Below, in pieces: positions 4,306 to 49,073 of a stretch of 64,000 nucleotides of DNA. The translations under genes and the position numbers were made by a program. The notes below the pieces were generated by a model, which ran no database searches, was not told the origin of the DNA, and saw only the letters and a program-made list of their open reading frames with translations. The DNA comes from an uncultured Gilliamella sp. (GTDB lineage: Bacteria; Pseudomonadota; Gammaproteobacteria; Enterobacterales; Orbaceae), in contig CAMLPV010000001.1 of NCBI GenBank assembly GCA_946482005.1, positions 124,001 to 188,000 of the forward strand. The letters are read 5' to 3'. The number at the start of each line of letters is the position of its first letter. Position 1 is the stretch's first letter.

Positions 4306-5256
4306 ATGAGTCAATTAGATGAATTTAAAAAGTTAACCGTAGTGGTTGCCGATACCGGTGATATCGATTCGATTAAACAGTTTTCTCCAGAAGATGCAAC
4401 CACCAATCCCTCTCTTGTTTTAAAAGCTGCTCAACTTCCTCAATATCGTTATTTAATTGATTCTGCTGTTGAAACTGCAAAAAAACTTGGTGGCAGTAAA
4501 GAACAACAATTAGTTAATGCCTGTGATCAAGTGGCAGTAAATATCGGTGCTGAAATATTAAAAACCGTACCGGGTCGAATTTCAACCGAAGTCGATGCGC
4601 GATTATCGTTTGATAAACAAGGTTGTATAGAAAAAGCGCGTAGAATTATTGAATTATACCAACAAAAAGGGATTGATAAATCAAGGATTTTAATCAAAAT
4701 TGCTTCCACTTGGGAAGGAATTAAAGCGGCAGAAGTGTTAGAAAAAGAGGGAATTAACTGTAATTTAACCTTACTGTTTTCATTTGCTCAAGCGCGCGCT
4801 TGTGCTGAAGTAAATGCATTTCTTATTTCACCATTTGTTGGTCGTATTTATGATTGGTATCAAGCTAAAAAACCAATCGACCCTTATGTTGCTGATCAAG
4901 ATCCTGGAGTGGTATCGGTTCGTAATATTTATAACTATTATAAGCAACATGGTTATAAAACGATCGTGATGGGCGCAAGCTTCCGTAAAGTCGATCAGAT
5001 ATTAGCGTTGGCGGGTTGTGACCGTTTAACAATTTCCCCTAATTTATTGGCAGAAATGCAACAATCCAATGCACCAGTTGAGCGGAAATTAAATCCAAAC
5101 CAAACTGTGGTTGAACGTCCAGCATTAATGACAGAAGCTGAATTTAGATGGCAACACAACAGTGATGCAATGGCAGTGGAAAAACTAGCTGAAGGAATTC
5201 GTGCCTTTGCTGTCGATCAGGGTAAACTTGAAGATATGATCGGCGCATTGCTTTAA
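4306..5256 (+). CDS. tal: Transaldolase
   Basis: 316 aa; [50 protein letters not shown]. Confidence 0.96.
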
Positions 5257-5292: not shown

Positions 5293-5371
5293 ATTTAACT
5301 ATAACCTGTTTTATTCGTCTGTTGGCAACAGGCAATCAATGAATTATTAATTTATTTTGGAGATTATTATC

Positions 5372-7378
5372 ATGAATGCAACCACACTATCCCACCGCGA
5401 ACTAGCAAATGCGATAAGAGCATTAAGTATGGATGGCGTGCAAAAAGCAAAATCAGGCCACCCAGGTGCACCTATGGGGATGGCTGATATGGCCGAAGTA
5501 CTTTGGCGTGGATTTTTAAAACATAATCCAACCAATCCTAATTGGGCTGATCGGGATAGATTTGTATTATCAAATGGTCATGCATCAATGTTAATTTATA
5601 GCTTATTACATTTGACTGGTTATAACGTAACGCTTGATGACATAAAAAACTTTCGTCAATTAAATGCTAAAACCGCAGGTCACCCTGAATATGGCCATCT
5701 TCCGGGCATTGAAACAACCACAGGCCCATTAGGTCAAGGTATTGCTAATGCTGTTGGTATGGCAATCGCTGAAAGAACATTAGCTGCACAATTTAATAAA
5801 TCAGGTCATACTATTGTTGATCACCATACTTACGTATTTATGGGTGATGGTTGTATGATGGAAGGCATTTCTCATGAAGTTTGTTCATTAGCCGGAACCC
5901 TTAAACTAGGCAAACTGATTGCTTTTTATGATGATAATGGTATTTCAATTGATGGTGAAGTCGAAGGTTGGTTTACCGATGATACTGCTAAACGTTTTGA
6001 AGCATATGGTTGGCATGTGATTCGTGGTATTGATGGACACGATGCGAAAGCATTAGCTCAAGCGGTTGAACAAGCACAAGCAGTGACTGATAAACCATCA
6101 TTATTAATGTGTAAAACAGTTATCGGCTTTGGTTCTCCAAACAAAGCAGGAAGTCATGATTGCCATGGTGCGCCACTTGGTGATGCTGAAATTGAAGCAA
6201 CTCGCAAAGCATTAGGTTGGTCTTATCCTGCATTTGACATTCCAAAAGAGTATTATGACGCATGGGATGCGAAAGCAAAAGGTAAACAACGTGAAGACGA
6301 ATGGAATGCTCGTTTTGATGCGTATGCTAAAGCTTATCCAGATTTAGCCAAAGAATTTAAACGCCGTATGAATGGTGATCTACCAAGCAATTGGCAACAA
6401 ACAGCTAAAGATTTTATTAATAAATTACAAGCAAATCCGGCAACTATTGCTACTCGTAAAGCCTCACAAAACGCGATTGAAGCTTTTGCGCCAGTGTTAA
6501 CTGAATTCTTAGGTGGTTCTGCTGACTTAGCACCAAGTAATTTAACTATGTGGTCAGGCTCTAAAGAAATTTTAGCTAATCCAGCTGGTAACTATATCCA
6601 CTATGGTGTACGTGAGTTTGGTATGTCAGCTATTATGAATGGTATTTCTCTACATGGTGGCTTTATTCCTTATGGCGCCACTTTCTTGATGTTTATGGAA
6701 TATGCGCGTAACGCAGTCCGTATGGCAGCGTTAATGAAAATTCGCTCTTTATTTGTCTATACCCATGACTCAATTGGTTTAGGTGAAGATGGCCCAACGC
6801 ATCAACCAGTAGAACAAATGGCAAGCTTACGTGTAACACCAAATGTAAGTACGTGGCGTCCTTGTGACCAAGTTGAATCAGCTATTGCTTGGCAATACGC
6901 GGTTGAACGTAAAGATGGTCCTACTGCACTTATCTTCTCAAGACAAAATCTTAAACAACAAGAACGTACTGAAGAGCAATTAGCTAATGTTTATCGTGGT
7001 GGTTATATCTTAAATGATTGTAGCGGTACCCCTGAACTTATCCTTATTGCTACCGGTTCAGAAGTTGAACTTGCCGTTGCTGCATATCATGAACTAACTG
7101 CAGCGGGTAGAAAAGTGAGAGTGGTTTCAATGCCATCAACCGATGCATTTGATAAACAAGATCAAGCCTATAAAGAATCAGTATTACCTTCATCTGTAAC
7201 GGCTCGCTTAGCTATTGAAGCAGGTATTAGTGACTTCTGGTATAAATATGTTGGCCTAAACGGAAAAATTATCGGTATGACAAGCTTCGGTGAATCAGGC
7301 CCAGCAGATCAACTGTTTGCTAAGTTTGGCTTTACTGTTGAGAATGTTGTAGAACAAGCGAAAAGTTTGTTGAAATAA
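5372..7378 (+). CDS. tkt: Transketolase
   Basis: [40 protein letters not shown]; full length. Confidence 0.97.
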
Positions 7379-7401
7379 ATTATAGTTTGCTTAATAGTAT
7401 A

Positions 7402-7435
7402 AAACTTCGCTAATAACTTTAGCGGAGTTTTTTAT
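7402..7435 (+). terminator. Rho-independent terminator after tkt
   Basis: AAACTTCGCTAA-TAAC-TTTAGCGGAGTTTTTT. Confidence 0.8.
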
Positions 7436-7598
7436 ATGCTTATTTTATGTTTTTTGAGGAATTTAATTTTAGTTTTAAAACGTATTTATCGATTATTTTA
7501 GTCACTTATATATCCAACTTCCAGTAATGAAAGTTATTTTATAACTTATTGTTTATTATTTTATTTTAAATTTTTCTCCCACCTTGGCACAATCAAAA

Positions 7599-7837
7599 AA
7601 TCGATGCTTTTGATAAGCAGATCAAACCTATAAAAAACACTATTACCATCATCAGTAACGGTTCGTTTAGCTATTGAAACTGGTATTATTGACTTCTGGT
7701 ATAAATATGTTGGCCTAAACGGTAAAATCATCGGTATGACAAGCTTCGGTGAATCAAACCCAGCAGAACAACTGTTTGCTAAGTTTGGTTTTACTGTTGA
7801 TAATGTTGCGGAACAGGTGAAAGAATTGATTAAATAA
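7599..7837 (+). pseudogene. Degenerate duplicate of the tkt 3' end (copy 2)
   Basis: Aligns to tkt ~7140-7378 (GACTTCTGGTATAAATATGTTGGCCTAAACGG...ATCGGTATGACAAGCTTCGGTGAATC) with indels and a stop; no start. Confidence 0.93.
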
Positions 7838-7910
7838 TGATAAAAACTCCTTTGACATGAAAGTTTTTAGGAGTTTTTTACTAAAAATAATAATCAATTT
7901 ATCTACTATT

Positions 7911-8966
7911 CTATTCAAAAAAAGTGACAATGACTTTTGATGAGATATTTTTATCTGTTGCAGTGATTAGCGCTTGTTCTACATCTTGATATCGATACTC
8001 ACTAGAGATTAACGGACGAGGATCAATAAGCCCTTGTTCGAGCCACTTAACGGCAATGCCGAATTCATCAATAAAACGAAATGATCCTTTCCACGTTAGT
8101 TCTTTAGCTAACATTTGCGCAACCGGATATTGGACAGGACTTGCTCCCATTCCAACTTGTACGACAATACCATTAGCCCGAGTGACCGCAACTGTTGATT
8201 CAATTGCAGCGGCGGCGCCACAAGCCTCAAATGTAACATCAAAATAACCTTTATCCTTGCTAAATTCATTAAATATTTCTTTATCTAATGGGCTAATGGC
8301 TTTATGGGCTCCCATTTCCAGCGCTATTTTTTGACATCGCTCACTAATATCTGATGCGATAATTTCTACTGCTCCCGATGCTTTTGCTGCGGCGATGATC
8401 AATCCACCAATAGGACCGGCTCCCATAACCAGAACTTTTTTTCCGACTAAGCTACCCGCGACATTAATCGCATGAATAGCTACAGTGGTAGGTTCAGAAA
8501 AAGCCATAATTTGTGGTGAAATACTACTATCATAAGGAAAACATTGTTCCTCTGATACAACAACATATTCAGAAAACCCACCATGAACATGAGGATTAAA
8601 TTGAGCACTTCCCATAAATCGCATGTTGGGGCACTCATTTTGTTTGCCTGCTAAACAAAAATCACATTTATTGCAAGGTTGTGATGGATTAATAGCAACT
8701 TTTTGACCTACTTTTAATTTAGAATCTATCGGTGCTTTGTAAATTTTACCCACAAATTCGTGACCAATAACCATGGGATGTTTTAGAACAGATAACCCAG
8801 CATGACCTTCTTGATAATAATGAATATCTGATCCACAAATACCACCAGCTTCAACTTTAACAACGATATCGTTAGAGGTATAAACAAGCTCGCGTTCTTC
8901 AATACGGATATCTTTTTTGCTATGAGCAAAACAAGCGTTACATTTTAGTTTTTCAGCCATTTGCAT
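7911..8966 (-). CDS. idnD: Zn-dependent alcohol dehydrogenase, L-idonate 5-dehydrogenase / RspB-like
   Basis: GGICGSDIHYYQEGHAG...HPMVIGHEFVGKI, CNKCDFCLAGKQNECPNMRFMGSA. Confidence 0.82.
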   Translation of the reverse strand: MQMAEKLKCNACFAHSKKDIRIEERELVYTSNDIVVKVEAGGICGSDIHYYQEGHAGLSVLKHPMVIGHEFVGKIYKAPIDSKLKVGQKVAINPSQPCNKCDFCLAGKQNECPNMRFMGSAQFNPHVHGGFSEYVVVSEEQCFPYDSSISPQIMAFSEPTTVAIHAINVAGSLVGKKVLVMGAGPIGGLIIAAAKASGAVEIIASDISERCQKIALEMGAHKAISPLDKEIFNEFSKDKGYFDVTFEACGAAAAIESTVAVTRANGIVVQVGMGASPVQYPVAQMLAKELTWKGSFRFIDEFGIAVKWLEQGLIDPRPLISSEYRYQDVEQALITATDKNISSKVIVTFFE

Positions 8967-8978
8967 ACTCCTCCTTGA

Positions 8979-9746
8979 TCATAAAACAGCTAACCAGCCA
9001 CCATCTACATAAATCACTTGGCCATTAATATAATCGGAGGAAGGGGCGGCAAGAAAAATAGCTGTTCCAATAAGCTCTTCTGTTTTACCCCAACGTTTTG
9101 TAGGATTACTATTTTTAACCCAATTATCAAAAGCTTCATCTTTAATTAAAGCTTCATTCATATCAGTTAGAATGTAGCCAGGACCAATCGCATTGGCTTG
9201 AATATTAAATTGCCCCCATTCAGCTGCCATTGATTTAGTTAACATTTTTATACCACCTTTTGCGGCAGTATATGGAGCAACCGTCGGACGAGCCTGTTCA
9301 CTAGTTAACGAACAGATATTAATGAATTTACCGCCTGATTTACGGGCGATCATTCTTTTAGCCGCTTCACGTGAAACTAAAAAAGTGCCGGTTAAATGAA
9401 TATCTACTACACGTTGCCAATCTTTTAATTCGAGCTCAACCATTGGTTGCCGATGTTGAATTCCTGCATTATTAATGACAATATCAACATGAATACCTTC
9501 CTTATCCATAAGGTTAAACGCATTAATAATTTGTTCTTCTTTAGCAACATCAATAACATAACCAGTTACTTTATAACCTTTAGCTTTTAATTTACTTACC
9601 GCTTCATTAAGAGGCTCCTGATGAAGATCACTTAGTATAATATTAGCACCAGCAGAGGCTAAACCCTCCGCGTAAGAAAAACCTAATCCTCGTGCAGAAC
9701 CGGTGATCAAAGCAGTTTTTCCTGATAAATCAAATAATTTATGCAT
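8979..9746 (-). CDS. idnO: SDR oxidoreductase, gluconate 5-dehydrogenase (IdnO)-like
   Basis: FDLSGKTALITGSARGLGFSYAEGLASAGA, INNAGIQHRQPM, C-terminal INGQVIYVDGGWLAV. Confidence 0.82.
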   Translation of the reverse strand: MHKLFDLSGKTALITGSARGLGFSYAEGLASAGANIILSDLHQEPLNEAVSKLKAKGYKVTGYVIDVAKEEQIINAFNLMDKEGIHVDIVINNAGIQHRQPMVELELKDWQRVVDIHLTGTFLVSREAAKRMIARKSGGKFINICSLTSEQARPTVAPYTAAKGGIKMLTKSMAAEWGQFNIQANAIGPGYILTDMNEALIKDEAFDNWVKNSNPTKRWGKTEELIGTAIFLAAPSSDYINGQVIYVDGGWLAVL

Positions 9747-9789
9747 TATATTTGTCCTTTAAAAATTTGTTGTATGTTTAATAATATTG

Positions 9790-9822
9790 GCGAGATACAT
9801 TGTCATACATTTGCTTGTATTA
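9790..9822. promoter_or_regulatory. Putative GntR-family operator in idnO/GntR divergent region
   Basis: GCGAGATACATTGTCATACA (18/20 identical to 10763-10782), overlapping GTCATA...TATGAC and CTTGTAT-N6-ATACAAG inverted repeats. Confidence 0.65.
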
Positions 9823-9993
9823 TGACATACAAGTTATTGTTAGAATGCATTTAGTTTTTATTTTGATCAAGAAGAGAGTATTAATTTTGTGATCAAGTCT
9901 ACAAAATTAATCGAGAATTTTGATAACTAATTGATTAAAAGCATTGATAAAATAGAAGCAATCAGCTGTAATATCACTAATAACAATTAAAAG

Positions 9994-10707
9994 ATGATAA
10001 AAGTAATGATTCAATCAATTCCAAGAAATAATATAGTTGATTCAGTCTATGAACAGATGTTAAGTAAAATACTAGATGGAAGCTGGCCTGAAGAGAGTAA
10101 ATTACCATCTGAATTTGAATTAACCGATCTTTTTAGTGTCAGTCGTACCAGTATTCGTAGTGCTGTGCAAAAGTTACGTGATTTGGGGATTATCTATACA
10201 AAACATGGTATGGGTTCTTTTGTCTCTAAAAATTTGAATAAGAATAAAATATTAAATATTAATCAACCCATTATGCATTTAAGTCAAGAAGAATTTACTG
10301 ACATGATGGTTTTTAGACAAACGGTTGAATTTAAATGTATTGAACTTGCTGCTATCAATGCTAATGAGCAAGATATTTTAGCAATCGAAGAAGCGCTAAA
10401 CCGTATGTTAATAAATAAGAATGATTACAAAAAATATTCACAAGCTGATTTAGACTTTCATATCGCGATTATAGAGGCATCACATAACAAAATATTTATT
10501 AATATTATTCATACTATTAAGGATGTGTATTATTATTATTTAGAAGAACTGAATCGAGTGTTAGGTATAACACTCGAAAGTATTGAAGCTCATATTAAAG
10601 TCTTTATGGCTATCAAAGAGCATGATGTTATTACCGCAAAACTCTCACTTGATAATGCAATGAAAACCAATGTTGTTGCAATTAATAAACTAAAAGAAGA
10701 AGTTTGA
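9994..10707 (+). CDS. GntR (FadR subfamily) transcriptional regulator
   Basis: N-terminal wHTH (LPSEFELTDLFSVSRTSIRSAVQKLRDLGIIYTKHGMGSFV) plus FCD-type C-terminal domain; ATG at 9994 or 10006. Confidence 0.92.
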   Translation: MIKVMIQSIPRNNIVDSVYEQMLSKILDGSWPEESKLPSEFELTDLFSVSRTSIRSAVQKLRDLGIIYTKHGMGSFVSKNLNKNKILNINQPIMHLSQEEFTDMMVFRQTVEFKCIELAAINANEQDILAIEEALNRMLINKNDYKKYSQADLDFHIAIIEASHNKIFINIIHTIKDVYYYYLEELNRVLGITLESIEAHIKVFMAIKEHDVITAKLSLDNAMKTNVVAINKLKEEV

Positions 10708-10762
10708 TCAATGCTAATTTAAAAAACTTGCATACTATCTGAGATAGTGTTATTTTTAATTT

Positions 10763-10782
10763 GCGAGATACGATGTCATACA
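10763..10782. promoter_or_regulatory. Second copy of the putative GntR operator, upstream of rspA-like gene
   Basis: GCGAGATACGATGTCATACA, matches 9790-9809 at 18/20 positions. Confidence 0.65.
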
Positions 10783-10817
10783 AGTTAGTTAGAAAACAAG
10801 TATACATCGGAGATTTT

Positions 10818-12065
10818 ATGTTAAAAATAACAAATGTGAAAACTATCTTAACAGCACCGGGTGGAATAGATTTGGTTGTTGTTAAGATTGAAACTAACCA
10901 AGACGGTCTATATGGTCTAGGCTGCGCAACATTTACCCAACGAATTTTTGCAGTTGAAGCTGCAATAAACGACTACATAAAACCATTTCTTATAGGTAAA
11001 GATCCCCGTCGAATCGAAGATTTATGGCAATCAGCCGTGGTTAGTGGCTATTGGCGTAATGGTCCAGTAATCAATAATGCTGTATCTGCTATGGACATGG
11101 CACTTTGGGACATTAAAGGTAAAATGGCAAACATGCCTGTCTACGAGCTGTTAGGCGGAAAATGTCGTGATGGTATTCCTCTTTATCGTCATTGTGATGG
11201 TGGGGATGCTATTGCTGCCGAAGACAATATTCGCGCCGCCATGGAAGAGGGGTATCAATATGTTCGTTGCCAGATGGGGATGTATGGTGGTGCTGGCACT
11301 GAAGATCTCAAATTGATCAATACTCAATATGATAAAGCCAAAAATATTCACCCTAAACGTTCACCTCATAACAAAACCTCTGGTATTTATTTCGATCCTG
11401 ATGCGTATGCGCGCAGTATTCCTCAATTTTTTGACCATCTACGCAATAAAATTGGTTTTGATGTCGAATTTATTCATGATGTTCATGAGCGAATTCAACC
11501 GATTGCAGCACTGCAAATGGCAAAAAGTTTAGAGGATTATCGTTTATTTTATTTAGAAGATCCTGTTGCTCCTGAAAATGTAGATTTTTTAAATGTTATG
11601 CGCCAACAAACTTCAACACCAATTGCTATGGGGGAACTTTTTGTCCATATTGCAGAATATAAACATCTCATTACCCAACATTTAATTGATTTTATCCGTT
11701 GTCATATCAGTATGATTGGCGGAATAACACCCGCTAAAAAATTAGCGACACTTTGTGAATTACATGGGGTCCGTACCGCATGGCATGGTCCTGGTGATAT
11801 TTCACCTGTAGGTGTTGCTGCCAATATGCATATTGATTTAAGTATTACTAACCTAGGTATTCAAGAATACACCCCAATGAACGATGACCTGAGAGAAGTG
11901 TTCCCAGGTTGTCCTGAAATTGATCAGGGCTATGCTTATCTAAGTGATAGACCAGGATTAGGCGTCGATATTGATGAACAAAAAGCGAAAAAATTTCCAG
12001 TGATTGGTGGATTACCGTCATGGACAAACGCCCGTACCCCCGATGGAACAGCGGCACGGCCATAA
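10818..12065 (+). CDS. rspA: Mannonate dehydratase-type enolase superfamily protein (RspA-like)
   Basis: MLKITNVKTILTAPGGIDLVVVKIETNQDGLYGLGCATFTQR, EFIHDVHERI, YLEDPVAPE; ATG 10818 with upstream GGAG preferred over 10761. Confidence 0.87.
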   Translation: MLKITNVKTILTAPGGIDLVVVKIETNQDGLYGLGCATFTQRIFAVEAAINDYIKPFLIGKDPRRIEDLWQSAVVSGYWRNGPVINNAVSAMDMALWDIKGKMANMPVYELLGGKCRDGIPLYRHCDGGDAIAAEDNIRAAMEEGYQYVRCQMGMYGGAGTEDLKLINTQYDKAKNIHPKRSPHNKTSGIYFDPDAYARSIPQFFDHLRNKIGFDVEFIHDVHERIQPIAALQMAKSLEDYRLFYLEDPVAPENVDFLNVMRQQTSTPIAMGELFVHIAEYKHLITQHLIDFIRCHISMIGGITPAKKLATLCELHGVRTAWHGPGDISPVGVAANMHIDLSITNLGIQEYTPMNDDLREVFPGCPEIDQGYAYLSDRPGLGVDIDEQKAKKFPVIGGLPSWTNARTPDGTAARP

Positions 12066-12195
12066 TCATTAATTGAGTTAGCTAATTCCAAGTAATTATT
12101 TGCGGATCGATATTCAAAATCTTAAAAAAATATAAACAACTGAGTTAGCTAATTTTGCAATCATTTGATTAATTTATATCTAAAGGTTACAAAGT

Positions 12196-13527
12196 ATGAA
12201 TACGTTAAAAAAGGTAGACAAGGAAAGAAATACTGCCGATTTAGTCAGAGCAGCGATGTCAGGTTGGTTGGGAACGGCATTAGAGTTTATGGATTTTCAG
12301 TTATATTCACTGGGAGCAGCATTAGTTTTCCATCAAATATTTTTTCCTGAACAATCTGCCGCTATGGCCTTAATTCTGGCAATGGGGACTTATGGTGCAG
12401 GTTATATTGCTCGGATTGCTGGTGCATTTATTTTTGGCAGAATGGGAGATAAAATTGGACGAAAAAAGATTCTTTTCATCACTATTACCATGATGGGGCT
12501 TTGTACAACATTAATTGGAGTACTACCTACCTATGCTCAAGTCGGTATTTTAGCACCGTTATTACTTGTTTTATTGAGAATAATTCAAGGATTAGGGGCT
12601 GGCGCTGAAATTTCAGGCGCCAGAACCATGCTAGCAGAATATGCACCCAAAGGTCGAAAAGGTATTATTGCTTCATTAGTTGCAATGGGAACCAACTGTG
12701 GCACCTTGTCAGCAACAGCTATTTGGGCAATTATGTTTTATTTATTTGATAGTGAACAACTATTAGCTTGGGGATGGAGAATTCCATTTTTAGCAAGTGC
12801 TGTGGTAATGTTATTTGCTATTTGGTTACGTTTAAACCTTAAAGAAAGTCCTGTTTTTGAAGAGGTAAATGACGGTAAACAGGCTATAAAAAATAAATCA
12901 TATATTGAAATATTCAAAGGAAAATCCTTTTGGCTTGCAACTGGATTACGATTCGGTCAAGCAGGAAATTCAGGGTTGATACAAACATTCTTAGCGGGTT
13001 ATATGGTGCAAACGTTACTATTTAGTAAGTCAATACCCACCGACGCAATGTTAATTAGTTCATTTGTTGGATTTTTAGTAATACTATTATCCGGATGGCT
13101 ATCAGATAAATTTGGTCGAAAACCTATCTATATTTTATTAACTATTGGTTCAATAATACTTGCTTATCCAATGATTTCAATTATTTTGGATAAAAGCTAT
13201 CAGCCAAGTATTATTATGTTATGTCTAATTATTATTCACAATATTGCCGTATTAGGACAAGCGGCAATTGAAGCAATCACGATGGCTGAAATGTTTGGTT
13301 CGCGCAGCCGATTTGCATCAATGGCTGTTGCTAACGAAATTGGCGGTTTATTGGCAGTTGGCTTAGGACCACTATTTGCTGGGATATTTTGTAATATAAC
13401 AGGATCATGGTGGCCGATTGTCGCCATGATTGTTTTTTATTCAGGCGTAGGGTTGATATCGGCGATTATTATGCCAGAAGTTGCAGATAGGAACCTTGAA
13501 GATCCTAAAGATGCTGCTGAGAAGTAA
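12196..13527 (+). CDS. MFS transporter, metabolite:H+ symporter (MHS)-like
   Basis: Twelve-TM MFS pattern; GRMGDKIGRKKILFITITMMG, RIIQGLGAGAEISGARTMLAEYAP. Confidence 0.9.
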   Translation: MNTLKKVDKERNTADLVRAAMSGWLGTALEFMDFQLYSLGAALVFHQIFFPEQSAAMALILAMGTYGAGYIARIAGAFIFGRMGDKIGRKKILFITITMMGLCTTLIGVLPTYAQVGILAPLLLVLLRIIQGLGAGAEISGARTMLAEYAPKGRKGIIASLVAMGTNCGTLSATAIWAIMFYLFDSEQLLAWGWRIPFLASAVVMLFAIWLRLNLKESPVFEEVNDGKQAIKNKSYIEIFKGKSFWLATGLRFGQAGNSGLIQTFLAGYMVQTLLFSKSIPTDAMLISSFVGFLVILLSGWLSDKFGRKPIYILLTIGSIILAYPMISIILDKSYQPSIIMLCLIIIHNIAVLGQAAIEAITMAEMFGSRSRFASMAVANEIGGLLAVGLGPLFAGIFCNITGSWWPIVAMIVFYSGVGLISAIIMPEVADRNLEDPKDAAEK

Positions 13528-13547
13528 TTAAAATTAATTATTCGCGT

Positions 13548-13583
13548 TATAAACCCTCTGATGTAAAGAGAGGGTTTTTTTAT
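13548..13583 (+). terminator. Rho-independent terminator after MFS gene
   Basis: AAACCCTCTGATGTAAAGAGAGGGTTTTTTTAT. Confidence 0.85.
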
Positions 13584-13784
13584 CAAACCCAGCAGAACAA
13601 CTGTTTGCTAAGTTTGGTTTTACTGTTGAGAATGTTGTTGAACAAGCGAAAAGTTTGTTGAAATAAATTATAGTTTGCTTAACAGTATAAAACTTCGCTA
13701 ATAACTTTAGCGGAGTTTTTTTATATGTTTATTTTATGTTTTTTGAGGAATTTAATTTTAGTTTTAAAACACATTTATCGATTA
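13583..13784 (+). pseudogene. Truncated tkt 3' end plus its downstream flank (copy 3, mosaic)
   Basis: Last 84 bp of tkt frame (13583-13666) then near-identical to 7379-7495 including the terminator. Confidence 0.93.
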
Positions 13785-14117
13785 AAACGATCGTGATGGG
13801 CGCAAGCTTCCGTAAAGTCGATCAGATATTAGCGTTGGCGGGTTGTGACCGTTTAACAATTTCCCCTAATTTATTGGCAGAAATGCAACAATCCAATGCA
13901 CCAGTTGAGCGGAAATTAAATCCAAACCAAACTGTGGTTGAACGTCCAGCATTAATGACAGAAGCTGAATTTAGATGGCAACACAACAGTGATGCAATGG
14001 CAGTGGAAAAACTAACTGAAGGAATTCGAGCCTTTGCTGTCGATCAGGGTAAACTTGAAGATATGATCGGCGCCTTGCTTTAATTAGCAATAAAAGAGGG
14101 GAGATAGTTCCCCTTTA
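13783..14117 (+). pseudogene. Truncated duplicate of tal 3' end and its downstream hairpin
   Basis: Near-identical to 4956-5291; three substitutions noticed in the coding part; predicted ORF 13736-14083 is a chimera starting in tkt flank. Confidence 0.95.
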
Positions 14118-14601: not shown

Positions 14602-15549
14602 ATGAGATGGGAAGAAAAGCGAGATTTAGTCAAAATTGCGACTTGGTATTACCAGTATGGTTGGACTCAAGCTCAAATAGCTCAAAAGATAGGTATTTCA
14701 CGATCAATAATTTCTAAAAAATTACAGGATGCTAAAGATTTAGGTATTGTTGAAATTTTTATTAAAGATGAAACTGCATATACCGTTGAATTAGAACAAA
14801 AACTTGAATCTAAATTTAAACTCGAAGAAGCGATTGTTGTTGCAACCCATGATCTGTCTTATGAAGAATCCTCTAATTGGTTAGCCAAAAAGGCAGCTTA
14901 TGCATTGAATAAACGAATTTTGAAAGTTAATAAATTAGGTATTTCATGGGGAAAAACAATTAGAAAATTTGTTAATGAATTTCCTTATATTACTCATAAA
15001 GAGCTAGTTATTGTCCCTTTAATTGGTGGTATGGGGACAGAAGAAGTTGACTTGCACTCTAATCAAATTTGTTATGATCTTAAGAAAAAAATGCAGTGCA
15101 CCTGTAAATATCTTTATGCACCTGCGTTAGTTGAAGATCAAACCATGAAATTAGATTTATCTAAAAATAAATATATAAATGAAGTTCTTAATGAAGGTAA
15201 AACTGTTGATATGGCCATCGTCGGTATTGCTAATCCTTATCATAACAGTACTATGCAAGAGATTGGCTATATTAATAACAAAGATCTTGAAGAGTTTCGT
15301 TATTACGATGTCGTTGGCGATTGTAATTCACGTTTTTATACTTCTGACGGCGAAGAAGCTAACAGCCCGATAAATCAGAGAATTATAGGTTTAAGTTTAG
15401 CTGATTTACGTGAAATTCCAACCGTGGTTGCCATTGTATCTGGTGAAAATAAAGAAAAAGCGGTGGTGGCGGCTTTAAATTCTAACATTATAGATATTGT
15501 CGTGATGACTGACAAAATGGCTGAATATATTTTAAATACCACTCTTTAA
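14602..15549 (+). CDS. SorC/DeoR-type sugar-binding transcriptional regulator
   Basis: HTH WTQAQIAQKIGISRSIISKKLQDAKDLGIVEI and C-terminal GLSLADLREIPTVVAIVSGENKEKAVVAAL. Confidence 0.9.
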   Translation: MRWEEKRDLVKIATWYYQYGWTQAQIAQKIGISRSIISKKLQDAKDLGIVEIFIKDETAYTVELEQKLESKFKLEEAIVVATHDLSYEESSNWLAKKAAYALNKRILKVNKLGISWGKTIRKFVNEFPYITHKELVIVPLIGGMGTEEVDLHSNQICYDLKKKMQCTCKYLYAPALVEDQTMKLDLSKNKYINEVLNEGKTVDMAIVGIANPYHNSTMQEIGYINNKDLEEFRYYDVVGDCNSRFYTSDGEEANSPINQRIIGLSLADLREIPTVVAIVSGENKEKAVVAALNSNIIDIVVMTDKMAEYILNTTL

Positions 15550-15559
15550 CGAATTTAAT

Positions 15560-15612
15560 ATTTAAATTTTAGTTAGCAAGCCTCTTTATTTTTATAAAGA
15601 GGCTTTTTTATA
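15560..15612 (+). terminator. Rho-independent terminator
   Basis: AAGCCTCTTTATTTTTATAAAGAGGCTTTTTT. Confidence 0.85.
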
Positions 15613-15648
15613 GCCAAAATTTAAACATAATAGACAAATGTCATTTAG

Positions 15649-15664
15649 TGTGACAAATGTCACA
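15649..15664. promoter_or_regulatory. Consensus CRP-binding site
   Basis: TGTGA-CAAATG-TCACA; a GACAAATGTCA repeat also lies 19 bp upstream (15633). Confidence 0.75.
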
Positions 15665-15766
15665 TAATGGTGTTTTATTAATTGTGGTTATAATTTGTTA
15701 TGTTATCTTTATGATAAATAGATATTAAATCTATTTAATATTAATTTTTATAAGGAGAAAACAAAA

Positions 15767-17014
15767 ATGACCATCTATAAACAATTGTTGCAAAGAGAAG
15801 AAAATGACAACCCAATTAGAGTGGGAGTTATTGGTGCTGGTCAAATGGGAACAGGAATGATAGCGCAAATCGCCACCATTCCGGGAATGTGTGTAACAGG
15901 AATTAGTGATATCAATTTAACAGCTGCACAGCAAGCCGCAAAAGACTATAAAGCGAGTGCAAATAAAAAAAATGATATTTTGGTTTCTAAAAACTTTAAA
16001 GAAGTTATTCAAGCAAAAGAGGTTGAAATTATCGTCGATGCTACAGGAGTACCGGAAGTAGGGGCAAAAATTGCCTTAGAAACATTATTAGCCAAAAAGC
16101 ATCTAGTTCTGCTTAATGTTGAAATTGATATCACAATAGGTCCTTTGATGCACAAACTATTTAGTGCTGCCGATCTAATCTATAGTGGTTCCGATGGTGA
16201 TGAACCCGCAGCAACACTTGAGATGTATGAATTTGCTAAATCAATGGGCATGGAAGTTTTAGTCGTTGGTAAAGGTAAAAATAATAAGTTAAAAATCGAA
16301 GCAAACCCTGATACAGCTCAAGCTGAAGCTGATTCAAAGCATATGTCATCTCATATGTTAGCCGCATTCCAAGATGGTACCAAGACAATGGCAGAAATGA
16401 ATTTACTTTCTAATGCCATGGGATTTATCCCAGATGTCGTGGGCATGCATGGTGTTAAAGGTGACTTGGATTCGGTCCTTCAAGATTTAAACTTAAAAGA
16501 AAATGGCGGCGTTCTTAATAAATTTGGCGTGGTTGAATATGTTGATGGTTTAGCGCCGGGTATTTTTGTCATTGTTAAAGGACAAAATCCTAATGTTAGT
16601 AATGAATTAAATTACTTAATGAAAAAAGGTGACAGAGATCATCATATTTTATATCGCCCTTTCCACCTAGCCAGTCTTGAAACTCCGCTGACTATTGCTA
16701 AGGCCATTTTAAATCACGATACCGCTATTGTTCCTTGTGGCGCTCCTGTCTCTGAAACGGTTGCTGTTGCTAAAAAAAATATTAAGTGTGGTGAAAAACT
16801 CGATGGCATCGGTGGTTTTTGTGTTCGAGGGGTAATTGAAACTCATGCGGATATGCGGAAAAACCAAAATATCCCAATTGGGCTTATCAGCGGTAATGTC
16901 GTTGCTAAACGAGATATACCAAATGGTAAGTTTTTAACTGAAGATGATGTTGTTTTAGATGAAACAACCACAGTTTGGCAATTACGCAAACTTCAAGATG
17001 AAGTCTTTGGTTAA
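15767..17014 (+). CDS. NAD(P)-binding oxidoreductase, predicted homoserine dehydrogenase-like with C-terminal SAF domain (COG4091-like)
   Basis: Rossmann motif VGVIGAGQMGTGMIAQ; C-terminal IPIGLISGNVVAKRDIPNGKFLTEDDVVLDE resembles SAF. Confidence 0.82.
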   Translation: MTIYKQLLQREENDNPIRVGVIGAGQMGTGMIAQIATIPGMCVTGISDINLTAAQQAAKDYKASANKKNDILVSKNFKEVIQAKEVEIIVDATGVPEVGAKIALETLLAKKHLVLLNVEIDITIGPLMHKLFSAADLIYSGSDGDEPAATLEMYEFAKSMGMEVLVVGKGKNNKLKIEANPDTAQAEADSKHMSSHMLAAFQDGTKTMAEMNLLSNAMGFIPDVVGMHGVKGDLDSVLQDLNLKENGGVLNKFGVVEYVDGLAPGIFVIVKGQNPNVSNELNYLMKKGDRDHHILYRPFHLASLETPLTIAKAILNHDTAIVPCGAPVSETVAVAKKNIKCGEKLDGIGGFCVRGVIETHADMRKNQNIPIGLISGNVVAKRDIPNGKFLTEDDVVLDETTTVWQLRKLQDEVFG

Positions 17015-17020
17015 AAATAT

Positions 17021-17054
17021 AACCACTGCTGAATGATAAGACTCAGCAGTGGTT
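17021..17054 (+). other. Perfect 12-bp intercistronic stem-loop
   Basis: AACCACTGCTGA-ATGATAAGAC-TCAGCAGTGGTT, not followed by a T tract. Confidence 0.85.
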
Positions 17055-17093
17055 AGCGCAATAAGTTAAGTTGTTGTTATCGGAGGTAAAAAC

Positions 17094-17477
17094 ATGAATA
17101 TTGTCATTATCGCCAGTGTTATTTTGGCCTCGCAGTCTATATTGAGTTTAATGCAAATTAACTATTATCAAAGATATATGTACAACATCACACAACAATA
17201 TTTGCATTTTAAACATCATCGGCTTTATTCATCTATTGAACGTAAATGGTTAGGCGCAACTGCGATTGTAGTTATGGTGATCGATGAAAACCAAATGGTT
17301 AAAGAATGCCAACTTTTAAAAGGAAAATCAGTCTTTGCCAAATTTAAACCGCTACCAAGATTCTATGGACATCATCTGTCACAAATTTTGATTAACTTAA
17401 CGGAAGAAAGTCAAACGAGAAAACTCTCGCTAGAAGAAAGAGCAATGATAAAAATGGCAAACCAAATTTCTGGGTGA
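17094..17477 (+). CDS. gutM: Glucitol operon activator GutM/SrlM-like
   Basis: Single N-terminal TM, family pattern, located between oxidoreductase and glucitol PTS genes. Confidence 0.8.
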   Translation: MNIVIIASVILASQSILSLMQINYYQRYMYNITQQYLHFKHHRLYSSIERKWLGATAIVVMVIDENQMVKECQLLKGKSVFAKFKPLPRFYGHHLSQILINLTEESQTRKLSLEERAMIKMANQISG

Positions 17478-17521
17478 TTTAACTTATCAACACATTAAAA
17501 ACTAATTCAAAGGAGATAATA

Positions 17522-18043
17522 ATGGACTATATTGAGTGGTTTGGAACCCATTTTATTGGGTTATTTCAGGCTGGCGGACAAGTTTTTGTCGGATTTATGA
17601 CTGGCATCGTGCCGCTATTGATTGTGTTATTAACATTTACTTATTCTTTAATCGCTTTTATTGGTGAACAACGAGTCACCAAAGCTATCCAATTTTCTGC
17701 TAAAAACAGGTTATTGCGTTACAGTTTAATGCCAATACTATCTGTTTTAATGTTGACTAACCCAATGGCTTATACTTTTGGTCGTTTTGTTAAAGAAGAA
17801 CAAAAACCGGCTTTTTATGATTCGGTAGTCTCTTTTTTGCACCCTGTAACCGGTTTGTTCCCATATGCCAATGCCGGTGAGTTATTTGTATTTTTAGGCA
17901 TTGCCAATGGTGTGATGGATGCTGGTTATAACATTTCAAGTCTTTCAGTACGCTACTTTTTGGCGGGCATTATCATTATTTTAATGCGTGGTGTTATCAC
18001 TGAAATGATCACCAAATTCTTGATGCGTAAAGAAAAACTGTAG
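17522..18043 (+). CDS. srlA: PTS glucitol/sorbitol-type EIIC (IIC2)
   Basis: 173 aa; HFIGLFQAGGQVFVGFMTGIVPLLIVLLTF... NPMAYTFGRFVKEEQKPAFYD. Confidence 0.92.
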   Translation: MDYIEWFGTHFIGLFQAGGQVFVGFMTGIVPLLIVLLTFTYSLIAFIGEQRVTKAIQFSAKNRLLRYSLMPILSVLMLTNPMAYTFGRFVKEEQKPAFYDSVVSFLHPVTGLFPYANAGELFVFLGIANGVMDAGYNISSLSVRYFLAGIIIILMRGVITEMITKFLMRKEKL

Positions 18044-18055
18044 GAGAGTGACGTT

Positions 18056-19084
18056 ATGTATAAAACAATTTTTATCGAGAAAGGCCAAGGTGGCTGGGGG
18101 GCAGGTTTTTCTTTAACTCCAACGGCAGAAAAACATAAGATACTCTCTGTGACTGGCGGTGGTATTCATCCAGTTGCACAAAAAATTGCTGAACTCTCCG
18201 GCGGTGAAGCGGTAGATGGTTTTAAAAATGCCATTCCCGAAAATGAAATTTTGTGTGCAATTATAGATTGTGGTGGTACCGCGCGAATTGGTGTTTATCC
18301 AATGAAAAAAATTCCTACCATTGATGTTATTCCATCAGCACCGACAGGTCCTTTAGCAAAACATATTACTGAAGATATTTTTGTTTCAGGAGTGAAACCG
18401 CAAAACATACTATTATCAGAAGGTAATAATGAACAATCAACGATATCTGCGCAGGATGAACAGTTGCAAACACAAACGGGGAAAGATCCACTTTTGGATC
18501 GTGAAAAATTCAAAGAAAAATATGCCCAAATAAAGCAAGAACATCATCAAAATCAAAAAGAAGGTTTATTGATAAAATTATCTCGAGGAATAGGTAAAGC
18601 AATGGGAATCTTTTATCAAGCCGGTCGTGATTCGACGGATATGTTAATTAGAAATATTATTCCTTTTATGGCATTTATCAGCATGCTTATAGGTATTATT
18701 AATTACACTGGTATCGGTCATATCATAGCTACCACCCTGTCACCTTTAGCTGGTTCAATATGGGGGATGATGGTAATTGCGTTCATTTGTAGCTTACCAT
18801 TTCTATCCCCAATCCTTGGGCCAGGAGCGGTTATTGCTCAAGTTATTGGGGTTTTGATTGGTTCACAAATTGCAATTGGTGCAATACCTGTTGCTTATGC
18901 ACTACCTGCGTTATTTGCGATTAATGCGCAGGCTGGATGTGATTTTATTCCGGTTGGCTTGTCTTTAGGAGAAGCCGAACCTAAAACCGTTCAATTTGGC
19001 GTACCAGCAGTACTCTATAGTCGTATGCTAACCGGAATATTAGCTGTGGTTGTTGCATGGGTAATGAGTTTTGGAATGTATTAA
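18056..19084 (+). CDS. srlE: PTS glucitol/sorbitol-type EIIBC
   Basis: FIEKGQGGWGAGFSLTPTAEKHKILSVTGGGIHPVAQKIAELSGGEAVDGFK; C-terminal membrane domain. Confidence 0.92.
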   Translation: MYKTIFIEKGQGGWGAGFSLTPTAEKHKILSVTGGGIHPVAQKIAELSGGEAVDGFKNAIPENEILCAIIDCGGTARIGVYPMKKIPTIDVIPSAPTGPLAKHITEDIFVSGVKPQNILLSEGNNEQSTISAQDEQLQTQTGKDPLLDREKFKEKYAQIKQEHHQNQKEGLLIKLSRGIGKAMGIFYQAGRDSTDMLIRNIIPFMAFISMLIGIINYTGIGHIIATTLSPLAGSIWGMMVIAFICSLPFLSPILGPGAVIAQVIGVLIGSQIAIGAIPVAYALPALFAINAQAGCDFIPVGLSLGEAEPKTVQFGVPAVLYSRMLTGILAVVVAWVMSFGMY

Positions 19085-19102
19085 ACATTAAAAGGATTAA
19101 TT

Positions 19103-19456
19103 ATGGCAAAAAGTATTATTACTGAAATTGGTTCTATCGTTCCAGAATTCAAAGAAGAAAAAGTTATTATTTTATTTGGTCCAATGGCAACACCTGATTT
19201 ACGTGAAATTTGTGTGATACATGAGTTTCATAAAAAGCCTAATCAAACATTAGTTGCGGGTAAAGAATTTAGGTTAGGTAGACATAAATATACCATTAAA
19301 AAGGTTGGTAGTGAGGCTAATAGAAACTTTGAAGAATTAGGACATATTTCTATCTATTTTAAATTAAGTGATGATGGCACCTTGCCAGGTGCCATAGAAG
19401 TTGAACCAGCTGTTTTCCCTGAATTAAATATTGGCGATGATATTTGTTTTGAATAA
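19103..19456 (+). CDS. srlB: PTS glucitol/sorbitol-type EIIA
   Basis: 117 aa IIA-Gut pattern (IILFGPMATPDLREICVIHEFH, YTIKKVGSEANRNFEELGHISIYF). Confidence 0.9.
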   Translation: MAKSIITEIGSIVPEFKEEKVIILFGPMATPDLREICVIHEFHKKPNQTLVAGKEFRLGRHKYTIKKVGSEANRNFEELGHISIYFKLSDDGTLPGAIEVEPAVFPELNIGDDICFE

Positions 19457-19577: not shown

Positions 19578-21149
19578 TTAAAATGGATTAGGATCTTTTT
19601 TCAAATTATTAAATGGATATAGTTTATTCTTCCAATCTTTGATTTGAATATTCTTTTGTTCAGGTATATCAGTCAAATCATATTGCATATAATCATGTTG
19701 GACATTCAATTGAATCCCCATCCAATGACTTAATAAATAAACGAATTGATAACCTGAAATTTGTTTATTAATTTTAACCTGATTGGTTTTATCTGAATCA
19801 AAAAATATCAATGGCACTTGAAAACTATTTTGATATTCCCAATTGTGTCTTAAGTCTTGATATTGTTCAGTGTGCGAAAGCCCATGATCTGCAAAGTAAA
19901 CTACAGAGTAATCTTCATTATGTTTTTTTAATATCTCTACTGTTGATTTTATCAAGTCATCCGTTTCTTTAATACTACTGACATAACAGGAAACATTTTT
20001 ATTGTTAAGATCAAATTGCACATCAAACTGCAATCTTTTACAAAAATGAGGATGGGAACCGATTAAATGCATAACAATAAGTTTCGGTTTATCGTGCTGT
20101 TGCGTTAATAATGAATCTAATTCAGGTAAAAGTAATGTATCGTATTTTCCACGGGCTGATTTACCGTTGTATTCGCCTTTTTTGGTATAGAAGATATTTT
20201 TACTATAAGCTGTAATTCTCGGTACCGTTATTTCCATTCTACCTAATTTTCCTTGATTAGATAGCCAATAGGTTTCAAACCCGGCATCATTAGCAATTGC
20301 AATAATATTATTATTTAATTGGGCATTGACTTCACGATTATCTAAATAACTTGATTGACTAATCAAATGCGGAATTGATGATTGGGTATTTGATGCCGGG
20401 GCGATTAATCCATCCCAAATTAATGAGGCATTATTATCGGTAAAAGGGGTATTGCTATATTTAAAGCCATAAGCGCTCATATAATCTTTACGAACACTTT
20501 CACCAATGATAACAACATAAGTTTTATGTTGAGGATTGACAGAAACAATAGGTATTGTATTAGTTTGTTGGAGTTGCTTAAGCTGTTCTTGTTTTTCCGT
20601 TAGATATATTTTTACACTTGAATATAAATCCAGAAAAAATTCAAAAAAAGGATATTTAACATTATCTAATACGGTTGTTGTAATTCTAGTCAATGTAGTT
20701 GGTTGATATTTTATGACTCCTTTGACTGGTCTATAAATACAGATGAGTAATGCTATAGCAATAACGTAATAATTTCCTATTTTAGGAAATTGAAATTTTT
20801 TAAAAAAAAGAATAAAACTTATGACTAATATTAATGGTATAAAATAAAAATAAAGGGGTAATTGCGAACAAAATTCTTGTATTTCATCAATATCAGTTTC
20901 TGCTACTGCACTTACCACTGCAACATTTGGACTTCCATAATAAAATCCTATCGGAAAATAAAGTGCAGCAATAACAAATAATAATCCTAATAAAAAACGG
21001 AAAAATGTGAATCTAGCTAAAAAAATTAGAGAAAAATAAGTAAGCAGTATTCTATCAAATCTTTGTGGGTAACCTAATAAATAAACTAATAAAACAGAAA
21101 GACCGATACAAACAATATGTGAAAATAATTCTTTTTTGGTAAATATCAC
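19578..21149 (-). CDS. Phosphoethanolamine transferase (sulfatase family, membrane-anchored)
   Basis: N-terminal TM helices; VVIIGESVRKDYMSAYGF, HLIGSHPHFCKR, YFADHGLSH. Confidence 0.9.
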   Translation of the reverse strand: MIFTKKELFSHIVCIGLSVLLVYLLGYPQRFDRILLTYFSLIFLARFTFFRFLLGLLFVIAALYFPIGFYYGSPNVAVVSAVAETDIDEIQEFCSQLPLYFYFIPLILVISFILFFKKFQFPKIGNYYVIAIALLICIYRPVKGVIKYQPTTLTRITTTVLDNVKYPFFEFFLDLYSSVKIYLTEKQEQLKQLQQTNTIPIVSVNPQHKTYVVIIGESVRKDYMSAYGFKYSNTPFTDNNASLIWDGLIAPASNTQSSIPHLISQSSYLDNREVNAQLNNNIIAIANDAGFETYWLSNQGKLGRMEITVPRITAYSKNIFYTKKGEYNGKSARGKYDTLLLPELDSLLTQQHDKPKLIVMHLIGSHPHFCKRLQFDVQFDLNNKNVSCYVSSIKETDDLIKSTVEILKKHNEDYSVVYFADHGLSHTEQYQDLRHNWEYQNSFQVPLIFFDSDKTNQVKINKQISGYQFVYLLSHWMGIQLNVQHDYMQYDLTDIPEQKNIQIKDWKNKLYPFNNLKKDPNPF

Positions 21150-21355
21150 GAAAACAGATCCATGTTAAAACAATTAGTTGATAAAGCTGAAAATTATATA
21201 AGTAATCAAATTTTAAGCAATATAAATTTAGGTTAATTTTTTTATTGAGATAACTAATAAGTTATAATTCATATATTAATATTAAGATTTTTAGTTAAAA
21301 ATAATCGCCAAACTTTCAATATTTTTTAATAAATTTGGCGAGGAATTTTGTTTTA

Positions 21356-22744
21356 TTATCTTGAGGCTCTTTTTAATATCACATCTTGCGGTAGTTTTTG
21401 AATGTAGAGCATTCTAGCAATAAGTAAAAATGCTGCTACAGCTAGACCTAATATAATTCCTATCCAAAAACCTGCCGCGCCAATTGGCTGCATAATAAGA
21501 TCGGTTAATCCTAAGATATATCCAACCGGTAATCCCACTCCCCAATAAGAGATTAGGGTAATAAAAAAGATGCTTTTAGTATCTTTATAACCACGTAATA
21601 CATTACTTGCTACGACTTGCAAATAATCTGATGCTTGATAGATGGCAAGTAAAATAATCAATTGTAGACAGATGGTTATTACATCGATCTCATGAGTAAA
21701 TATGGTTATTATCGGTGATCTAAAAATGACCAGAATTAATGCCACGATTACCGCCATCATAAAGGATATAGCTAAACTTATATAAGCAGTTTGCTTGGCT
21801 AGAATTGGTTTATTTTTACCCAATAAGTAACCAACACGAATACTGGTTGCTACTCCCAAAGATAATGGTATAGCAAACGTTAAGCTACTGATAGTGAAGA
21901 TTATTTGGTGTGCAGCCACGGTTATTTGACCAAGTGGCGCAATAAGTAGTGCAACCACCGCAAACAGACTCATTTCAAAAAAATAGGCTAAAGCTAGTGG
22001 TGTGCCGAGGATAACTATTTTTTTGATGATAGCAAAATCAATGAGTTTGGTTAGTGGTGTTTTGCGAATATCACGTTGGCTAGCTGCGGTTAATGTATAC
22101 AAACGAATTAAAGCAAACATCAACCAAAAAATGATAGCGGCAGTAATTCCGCAACCAACACCACCAAAAGCAGGCAATCCAAACTTGCCATAAATTAATA
22201 CATAATTAATCGGAATATTGGCAAGTAGTGCTATAAATATAATCACCATAGCGGGTTTGGTGTTAGATAAGCCTTCGCATTGATTACGATAAACCAAAAA
22301 TAATAAGAAGGCAGGTACTCCCCACATAATTGCGCGTAAGAATGAAACGGCTACATCAACCATCTCTGGATCGATAGGATGATCAGCTGAGCTTCTTAGA
22401 CTAATTATTTTGTCGGAATTGTACAAAACTAGCATCATGATGATGGATAAAATTAACGCAATCACCACCCCTTGACGAGTCTGATCGGCTACTTGCTCAC
22501 GTTTGGCAGCACCATTTAAGTTAGAGATTATAGGGGTTAAAACCGTTAATAATCCTTGGCCAAACAAAACAGTAGGCAACCAAATTGATACAGCAATGGC
22601 TACCCCCGAAAGAGCAGTTTTGCTGTAATTACCCGCCATAATGGTGTCGACAAACGTGATTGCTGTTTGTGATATTTGGGCAATCATCACCGGTATAGCT
22701 AACGTGATTAGGTTTTTTATTTCGTGTCGATAATGTAGCTTCAT
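21356..22744 (-). CDS. MATE family efflux transporter (NorM/MdtK-like)
   Basis: 462 aa; NLITLAIPVMIAQISQTAITFVDTIMAGNYSKTALSGVAIA. Confidence 0.93.
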   Translation of the reverse strand: MKLHYRHEIKNLITLAIPVMIAQISQTAITFVDTIMAGNYSKTALSGVAIAVSIWLPTVLFGQGLLTVLTPIISNLNGAAKREQVADQTRQGVVIALILSIIMMLVLYNSDKIISLRSSADHPIDPEMVDVAVSFLRAIMWGVPAFLLFLVYRNQCEGLSNTKPAMVIIFIALLANIPINYVLIYGKFGLPAFGGVGCGITAAIIFWLMFALIRLYTLTAASQRDIRKTPLTKLIDFAIIKKIVILGTPLALAYFFEMSLFAVVALLIAPLGQITVAAHQIIFTISSLTFAIPLSLGVATSIRVGYLLGKNKPILAKQTAYISLAISFMMAVIVALILVIFRSPIITIFTHEIDVITICLQLIILLAIYQASDYLQVVASNVLRGYKDTKSIFFITLISYWGVGLPVGYILGLTDLIMQPIGAAGFWIGIILGLAVAAFLLIARMLYIQKLPQDVILKRASR

Positions 22745-27595: not shown

Positions 27596-28484
27596 TATTT
27601 AAAATTTATCAGCTAGCTAGTTTTTTAACTGCTGGTTGAGAATTATTTATTTAGCTCAAAATAGCAATTTATTAAAGTTCAATTAATACTTTTTTTAAGA
27701 TTATTGCCATCGGTCAAAAATAACTTTTCTACTATGAAAAATTACCCCTCCTAATACGAATTTCTTACTAAGCTTGTTTTCTTTGAAGCAAAAGTAAATC
27801 AATTAAAAATCACTGCTAGAAATCCTACAACCCAAATACGACTATAGCGAAAAACGTAAGTGAAAGTTGACGACTAATAGCATGATGCAAACACTTAATA
27901 ACGATTTAAATGAGATAACTAATAATTTTCGATTAGGCGAAATATAAAATGTCAGCTGTTGATCTCTTCTATAATGTCGAATAAACGACAATTGTATTTT
28001 TAACCCTATTGGATGTGTGTCAAGCAGTTAGGTAATAACTAATTAGAGGTTAATTTAAACAGATTGAAAATGCAGAGGATAATAATTGCCTGATTATAGG
28101 TTTATTGAATGGTTTTTATTTGGTTTATTAAGTAAAAAGTTAAAAAATGTGTTTTAAATAACTAACATTTGCCAAATCTTATTTCAATAAAGACCTGCAT
28201 GATACAATCGCTTAATCTTTTGTTTTGAGTGCGATCTTATGAACGACATGTTATCTGATTAAATGATATTACTTTTTAATATTTCTCACCAATATTTACC
28301 ATAAATTCATCTCTTTTTACATTGACAACATTTCAGCTATTTCCATTTGATTAGGCGGAAATCGCGGTTAGCTAGTTAATATTTAGATCTTAGTCACAAA
28401 ATTGCTATAAAACCATTTGCGGAGAAAATTTATTGGTTATAATTGAACAAAAGATTAATAAGTAAACATTTGTTCGGAGGTTTT

Positions 28485-28868
28485 ATGGTCAGTATCATTT
28501 TAGTATCTCATAGCAGGAAGATCACTGATGGGCTAAAAGAAATGATTGAGGAAATGGTTGATTCAACAGGGGATGTGAGAATTTTTTCGGCAGGGGGGAC
28601 AGAAGATGGCCGTTTAGGAACTGATTCTGTTGCCATTTATAACATTATTAAACAATCAAGCCAGCATAGTAACATTCTGATTTTTGCAGATATAGGTAGT
28701 GCAATTTTAAGTACCGAAACCGCAATTGATCTAATTGAAGATGAAGAGCTAAAAAGTAAAGTCATATTAGTTGATGCGCCATTAGTCGAAGGTGCTTTTT
28801 ATGCATCAATTCAAGCTATGGTTGATAAGGATGTGGAAGGTATTTTAGCTGAGTTACAAAATATTTAG
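28485..28868 (+). CDS. dhaM: PTS-dependent dihydroxyacetone kinase, phosphotransferase subunit DhaM (EIIA-Man-like only)
   Basis: MVSIILVSHSRKITDGLKEMIEEM, FADIGSAILSTETAIDL; ATG 28485 after GGAGG. Confidence 0.92.
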   Translation: MVSIILVSHSRKITDGLKEMIEEMVDSTGDVRIFSAGGTEDGRLGTDSVAIYNIIKQSSQHSNILIFADIGSAILSTETAIDLIEDEELKSKVILVDAPLVEGAFYASIQAMVDKDVEGILAELQNI

Positions 28869-28875
28869 AGAGAGA

Positions 28876-29361: not shown

Positions 29362-29374
29362 GATTAAGGAGTGA

Positions 29375-29728: not shown

Positions 29729-29768
29729 GTAAAAGACAAAAGGTTGAAGGATAGAAAGGAGTAACACA

Positions 29769-30767: not shown

Positions 30768-30784
30768 CCACAAGGAGAATCGAG

Positions 30785-31435: not shown

Positions 31436-31505
31436 TCAATGGTTTAGCTATTGATTGCAATTAACGAGTTTTAAATAATATTTAGTAGATACTGGAAGGT
31501 TGAAT

Positions 31506-32285: not shown

Positions 32286-32304
32286 GATAATAAAGGCAAG
32301 CCTA

Positions 32305-48680: not shown

Positions 48681-48726
48681 AAAATTAAGCAATATAAATT
48701 AAAAATAAAAAAATAATGAGGTCATT

Positions 48727-49050: not shown

Positions 49051-49073
49051 TTAACTCAAATTTGGATTAAGAT

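Follow-up and report, generated by a model that had tools for sequence, protein, structure and literature searches.

The window analysed here is a 64,000-nucleotide stretch from a draft genome of Gilliamella, a honeybee-gut bacterium (genome G000, contig C1, positions 124001-188000; 81% complete, 34 contigs). Within it, an intact tal-tkt pair is followed by a cassette of sugar-acid genes bracketed by truncated copies of the tkt and tal 3' ends, and then by a sorbitol operon, an eptA-like gene, and norM. The features are as follows, in window coordinates.

4306-5256, plus strand: tal, intact transaldolase gene (TIGR00874, above cut-off)
5357-7378, plus strand: tkt, intact transketolase gene (TIGR00232, above cut-off)
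7379-7598, plus strand: native tkt downstream flank with terminator (about 7401-7433), common to G014, G033, and G021
7599-7837, plus strand: fragment 1, decayed tkt 3' end (87% identical to the intact tkt 3' end, E 1.6e-77)
7911-8966, minus strand: idnD, L-idonate 5-dehydrogenase (NF007375, 522 bits versus a cut-off of 469)
8979-9746, minus strand: idnO-like SDR of the gluconate 5-dehydrogenase type (top NCBIfam match gluconate 5-dehydrogenase, 295 bits, below the cut-off of 369)
9994-10707, plus strand: gntR, GntR/FCD-family regulator, divergent from idnO-idnD (PF00392, PF07729)
10818-12065, plus strand: ManD-like enolase-superfamily dehydratase (NF043051, 420 bits, below the cut-off of 550)
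12196-13527, plus strand: MHS-family metabolite/H+ symporter (TIGR00883, 407 bits, below the cut-off of 443)
13582-13784, plus strand: fragment 2, tkt 3' end plus tkt flank (95%, E 1.5e-86)
13783-14116, plus strand: tal 3' fragment (99% identical to intact tal, E 2e-168)
14602-19456, plus strand: glucitol/sorbitol PTS operon with regulator, oxidoreductase, IIC, IIB, and IIA (NF049923 and NF049924 above cut-off, TIGR00849 below)
19578-22744, minus strand: eptA-like gene and norM (by synteny in congeners; norM is the conserved right border)

The likely tkt start is the ATG at 5372, with tblastn matches beginning at residue 6 in most congeners, and the putative start of the ManD-like gene is set at 10818 within an open reading frame listed from 10761. 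All five cassette genes are as the original prediction had described them: idnD scores above its NCBIfam cut-off, and the others encode an SDR, a GntR/FCD regulator, a ManD-like dehydratase, and an MHS symporter. The dehydratase falls below the NCBIfam cut-off for the canonical D-mannonate dehydratase ManD (420 versus 550 bits), the solved structures closest to it are 3tw9, 4ihc, and 3t6c (E about 1e-219 to 1e-231), and its gene context suggests a putative gluconate-type substrate. From general knowledge of the named enzyme families, the cassette would likely convert L-idonate to 5-ketogluconate (IdnD), then to D-gluconate (IdnO-like), and then to 2-keto-3-deoxygluconate (ManD-like), a predicted route that likely continues by a kinase and KDPG aldolase; the source genome encodes an Eda-type aldolase. 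The L-idonate/5-ketogluconate/D-gluconate sets of Enterobacterales such as Pectobacterium (L096) and Leminorella (L097) comprise the same five genes as the Gilliamella cassette. In those sets, however, the symporter gene lies on the other side, whereas the Gilliamella set sits between tkt and norM.

The truncated copies are true homologues of the native genes (E 1e-77 to 1e-168) and, as had been claimed, genuine duplicates of the tal and tkt ends; all three lie on the same strand as intact tal-tkt. Fragment 1 has a broken reading frame, and its left edge forms a joint (J1, tkt+220 / tkt-240); the native flank that precedes it aligns to G021 as far as position +219. Fragment 2 (203 bp) is made up of 85 bp of the tkt 3' end and 117 bp of tkt downstream sequence, including the tkt terminator, and its left joint (J4) falls directly 3' of the terminator of the symporter gene. 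Over its first 48 bp, fragment 2 matches fragment 1 exactly, and thereafter it is of the intact tkt type, a mosaic supported by few sites, which are partly polymorphic within the clade. The tal 3' fragment spans codon 209 to 33 bp beyond the stop, the part encoding the N-terminal two thirds of the enzyme being absent. Two base pairs (TA) overlap at J3, the joint on its left side. The longest identical stretch measures 232 bp between tal and the tal fragment and at most 43 bp between tkt and fragment 2.

We compared the locus with the mapped tal-tkt loci of 34 congeneric Gilliamella genomes, one per species. The arrangement is not one that all related genomes carry: fragment 1 is found in 2/34, a downstream tal piece in 4/34, and fragment 2 in 0/34. 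J3 and J4 occur in none of the congeners compared, and a search of viral contigs for J3 returned no other carrier. Assembly artefacts might be suspected at the 13.58 and 13.78 kb joints, as fragment 2 is present only in the source genome and that genome is an incomplete draft. Nevertheless, fragment 2 differs at about 5% of its sites from every other tkt copy, so it is no collapsed or mis-joined copy, and both J1 and the tal piece recur independently in other assemblies; we consider such an artefact extremely improbable.

Across the congeners, the order tal - tkt - variable interval - norM - rimO is conserved. The interval is nearly empty in G015, G018, G002, G030, G012, and G023, and holds eptA alone in G004, G016, G017, G025, and others. 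A complete idnD-idnO-gntR-manD-symporter cassette occupies it in G029, with cassette variants in G022 and G010, while G006, G007, G020, and G024 carry eptA together with a remnant of the manD 3' end. In G001 and G013, it contains the sorbitol PTS operon, directly after tkt, and eptA. The tkt-norM interval is thus a variable chromosomal site with the idn cassette as one of its regular occupants, and the sorbitol operon is an alternative “allele” of the same site. Variation among Gilliamella strains in sugar-use genes, with recombination, is described in PMC11325843 and PMC4161309. Term searches of PMC11325843 and PMC11822680 returned neither idonate nor gluconate and, in the former, no transaldolase; we met no description of the tkt-norM site in this part of the Gilliamella literature.

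The cassette core (idnO-gntR-manD-like) lies at the tkt-norM site in three distant species, with manD remnants in four more. Its identity between genomes follows that of tkt (r=0.96 over 15 pairs among six carriers), distant carrier pairs being 80-84% identical in the core and 81-84% in tkt, and six-genome trees of the core and of tal-tkt agree in their main splits. Because core divergence tracks tkt divergence, the cassette is most likely old at this site within the genus and no recent arrival. The G+C content of the cassette is 36.1%, against 35.3% for the first 26 kb of the window. A recent foreign origin was rejected on both counts (G+C of 36% versus 35%, and core divergence following tkt), and a hint of Pectobacterium origin, a ManD identity of 89%, was likewise dismissed, as the other cassette genes reach only 68-84%. 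The distribution of the cassette on the tkt tree is patchy (7 changes), with no trace in the near relatives G021, G004, G015, and G016; repeated loss or recombinational exchange across species could account for this. In G014 (locus L035), the sorbitol operon, about 8.3-11.1 kb beyond tkt, is ~95-100% identical to that of the distant G001, compared with ~84% for the tal-tkt region, which points to recent exchange between species.

The closest relative of the source genome among the genomes searched is G014 (G. apicola ESL0177), an isolate. In both G014 and the MAG G033, the intact tkt is followed by a tkt 3' piece, a broken eptA, an MFS transporter, idnO-gntR-manD, and a broken norM 3' end, and then by a tal 3' piece, the sorbitol operon, eptA, and norM; two versions of the tkt-norM interval stand there in tandem. 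The first block is symmetrical, bounded by stretches of tkt and norM of ~240 bp each. The tal 3' piece of these genomes begins at codon 177 and is longer than that of the source genome, which starts at codon 209. The source genome lacks the broken norM end and tal codons 177-208, and has fragment 2 in their place. Its cassette core is 97.5% identical to that of G014/G033, with idnD and the symporter as flanks versus another MFS transporter in G014/G033 and G022.

The source genome, G014, and G033 have J1 in identical form, and it is no assembly artefact, because it recurs in two relatives of which one is an isolate. A further joint, J2, leads from the norM end to tal in G014/G033, while in the source genome J4 leads from the symporter to tkt-84 and J3 from tkt+117 to tal codon 209. 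Each of the four jumps from downstream to upstream on one strand, and such a jump is the signature of tandem duplication. The original prediction had taken the order of the fragments, tkt end before tal end, as inverted relative to tal-tkt. The order itself is confirmed and at least two events are required, as proposed, but no inversion is needed, and the arrangement looks like a joint of the tandem-duplication type. The joint from the tal end to the sorbitol operon, which skips tkt, is of the deletion type. Where the joints can be resolved, their two sides share no more than ~5 bp (2 bp at J3 and perhaps ATCAA at J1), and the fragments were therefore probably not created by homologous recombination, although it is possible that they could recombine now. 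Trees place the tkt pieces, the broken eptA, and the tal pieces all inside the clade of the source genome, with the fragment 1 copies clustering inside the tkt of that clade. A distant donor of fragment 1 was rejected, as it is 72-77% identical to the tkt ends of G010/G022/G029 versus 88-93% within the clade.

The truncated tkt and tal copies are probably scars of partial tandem duplication (merodiploidy) within the lineage, combined with deletion at the variable tkt-norM site. Their membership in this class is indicated by the backward joints, J1, J3, and J4 here and J2 in G014/G033, and by trees of the tkt end, tal end, and eptA, which make the extra copies in-lineage. The fragments, the joints shared between genomes, and the alternative gene contents of the site are further direct observations, while the order of events and the route, either spontaneous duplication or DNA uptake from a close relative, belong to the reconstruction that follows. 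A partial tandem duplication of the tkt-norM locus would have arisen within the lineage of the source genome, placing the idn-cassette version and the sorbitol-operon version of the interval in tandem. Later deletions would have removed redundant parts, including the second tkt, and the source genome would also have lost the broken eptA and norM ends that G014/G033 retain. Fragment 2, found only in the source genome, would be filler or a duplication joint; copying of a short piece of the nearby tkt end in the course of a deletion would fit. Homologous recombination between the pieces may have followed, without having made them.

Since the comparison set holds one genome per species, we infer the duplication intermediates. 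Among the congener loci, no full undeleted duplication is found; more of it remains in G014/G033, namely, the broken eptA, the norM end, and the longer tal. Counting against the duplication scheme, fragment 1 is more decayed than the tal pieces, which are mostly 94-99% identical to the intact tal of the clade, and later gene conversion or separate timing would therefore have to be assumed. The difference in cassette flanks between the source genome and G014/G033 fits the scheme only in part and is not fully explained by it.

That flank difference bears on the route of cassette gain put forward in the original prediction, by which the cassette was newly acquired through homologous recombination between duplicated tal/tkt ends, for instance by a circular donor recombining with the tkt end. 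The direct tkt-end repeats bracket the cassette as single-crossover (Campbell-type) integration would leave them, both flanks are unlike those of G014/G033, and fragment 2, with its 48 bp equal to fragment 1 followed by intact-type tkt, would also fit a single-crossover event. Yet the mosaic signal amounts to few sites, partly polymorphic in the clade, and G014/G033 have the core, 97.5% identical, in the same position, with distant congeners carrying it at the site too. Moreover, fragment 1 and the left joint are older than the cassette difference between the source genome and G014/G033. Given the core at this site in three distant congeners, manD remnants in four, divergence matching that of tkt, and joints without long homology, we consider this route unlikely. 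What stands of the earlier interpretation are the real duplicates, the minimum of two events, and the lack of a mobile-element gene.

The patchy occurrence of the cassette on the tkt tree, and its absence from the four near relatives named above, make a regain from a close relative possible. In one form of this, a segment from a close relative (tkt end - eptA - cassette - norM end) would have been added during DNA uptake and restored a lost cassette, one or both of its ends joining illegitimately, as in homology-facilitated illegitimate recombination. The symmetrical block of G014/G033 and the lack of the cassette in those four genomes agree with such an addition, as does the high recombination reported for some G. 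apicola lineages (PMC4161309). However, a fragment with both ends illegitimate would be rare, no donor turned up among the sequences compared, and the ends are also consistent with internal duplication, so that we rate this explanation as quite unlikely.

Movement driven by an IS or integrase, with the fragments as target-site or attachment-site copies, appears very unlikely. Its one indication comes from G029 (L063), where an open reading frame at tkt+6038 to +6286, between the symporter and norM, resembles the end of an IS30-type transposase (no Pfam match). The region 7379-14117 holds no integrase or transposase ORF, in line with the original prediction of a cassette free of such genes, and no inverted-repeat pair surrounds the cassette. 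The repeats are imperfect (87-99%) and unequal in length, their edges differ, and the joints vary between genomes, unlike an integrative genomic island or a composite transposon.

Partial duplication at the tal-tkt locus appears to have occurred more than once, because G021 carries a nearly full-length broken tal after tkt and the tal piece downstream of tkt in G009 is sister to that genome's own tal (100/100). In G009, a 1,102-bp exact direct repeat of a sorbitol-type PTS IIB gene stands on either side of tal-tkt (locus L059, G009 C14, 1-1102 and 9498-10599; also L176 and L177) and joins three contigs, and sugar-PTS-type operons are found on both sides. A circle or plasmid formed from this 10.6-kb contig with its exact ends was rejected: the feoB contig and the eptA-norM contig region also terminate in this repeat, and an ordinary repeat between chromosomal contigs explains the exact ends, making a circle unnecessary. 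We tentatively suggest, as a possibility short of an expectation, that tal-tkt may be a recurrent stacking site, at which partial duplications (in the source clade, G009, and perhaps G021) would place the alternative sugar operons of relatives in tandem instead of replacing one by the other, and leftover direct repeats would allow later excision.

Some further observations were made at these loci and elsewhere in the window. G021 (L036, tkt+215 to +415) and G009 (L059, tkt+201 to +395) share a 77% remnant after tkt, which may represent the beginning of a gene for a BglG-type regulator (no Pfam match). A second rpiB-tal pair is present in G025 (L068, 6333-7793), directly upstream of a dihydroxyacetone-kinase operon that resembles the one at 28443-33288 of the window. 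The stretch 48110-54300 of the window is gene-poor, with a DUF4145 protein (50170-50904) and a weak AlpA-like helix-turn-helix ORF (52537-52998).

The reshuffling of sugar-use genes in a gut symbiont, without integrases, can be read from this locus: a fixed site holds alternative contents and, in one clade, two contents side by side. It also illustrates that bracketing gene fragments do not prove recent cassette gain. Two predictions follow from the repeats, namely, that recombination between the two tkt ends would delete the cassette only, and that recombination between the two tal ends would delete tkt as well.

Merodiploidy after natural transformation in S. pneumoniae (PMC3784515) likewise leaves two versions of a locus in tandem, free to diverge or be trimmed. 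There, duplications of ~100-900 kb pair via long repeats (R), whereas the Gilliamella segments are short and their joints lack long homology. Homology-facilitated illegitimate recombination (PMC3240628) allows a foreign segment to be added through one homologous end and one illegitimate end, but for the Gilliamella locus neither a homologous end nor a donor was identified. Genomic islands at gene 3' ends resemble it in that copies of a gene 3' end flank variable cargo, and differ in that the Gilliamella locus is without an integrase and without exact attachment repeats, and its fragments are of different lengths. Set beside these systems, the locus shows known processes in clearly legible form, namely, local duplication, deletion, and exchange at a variable site.
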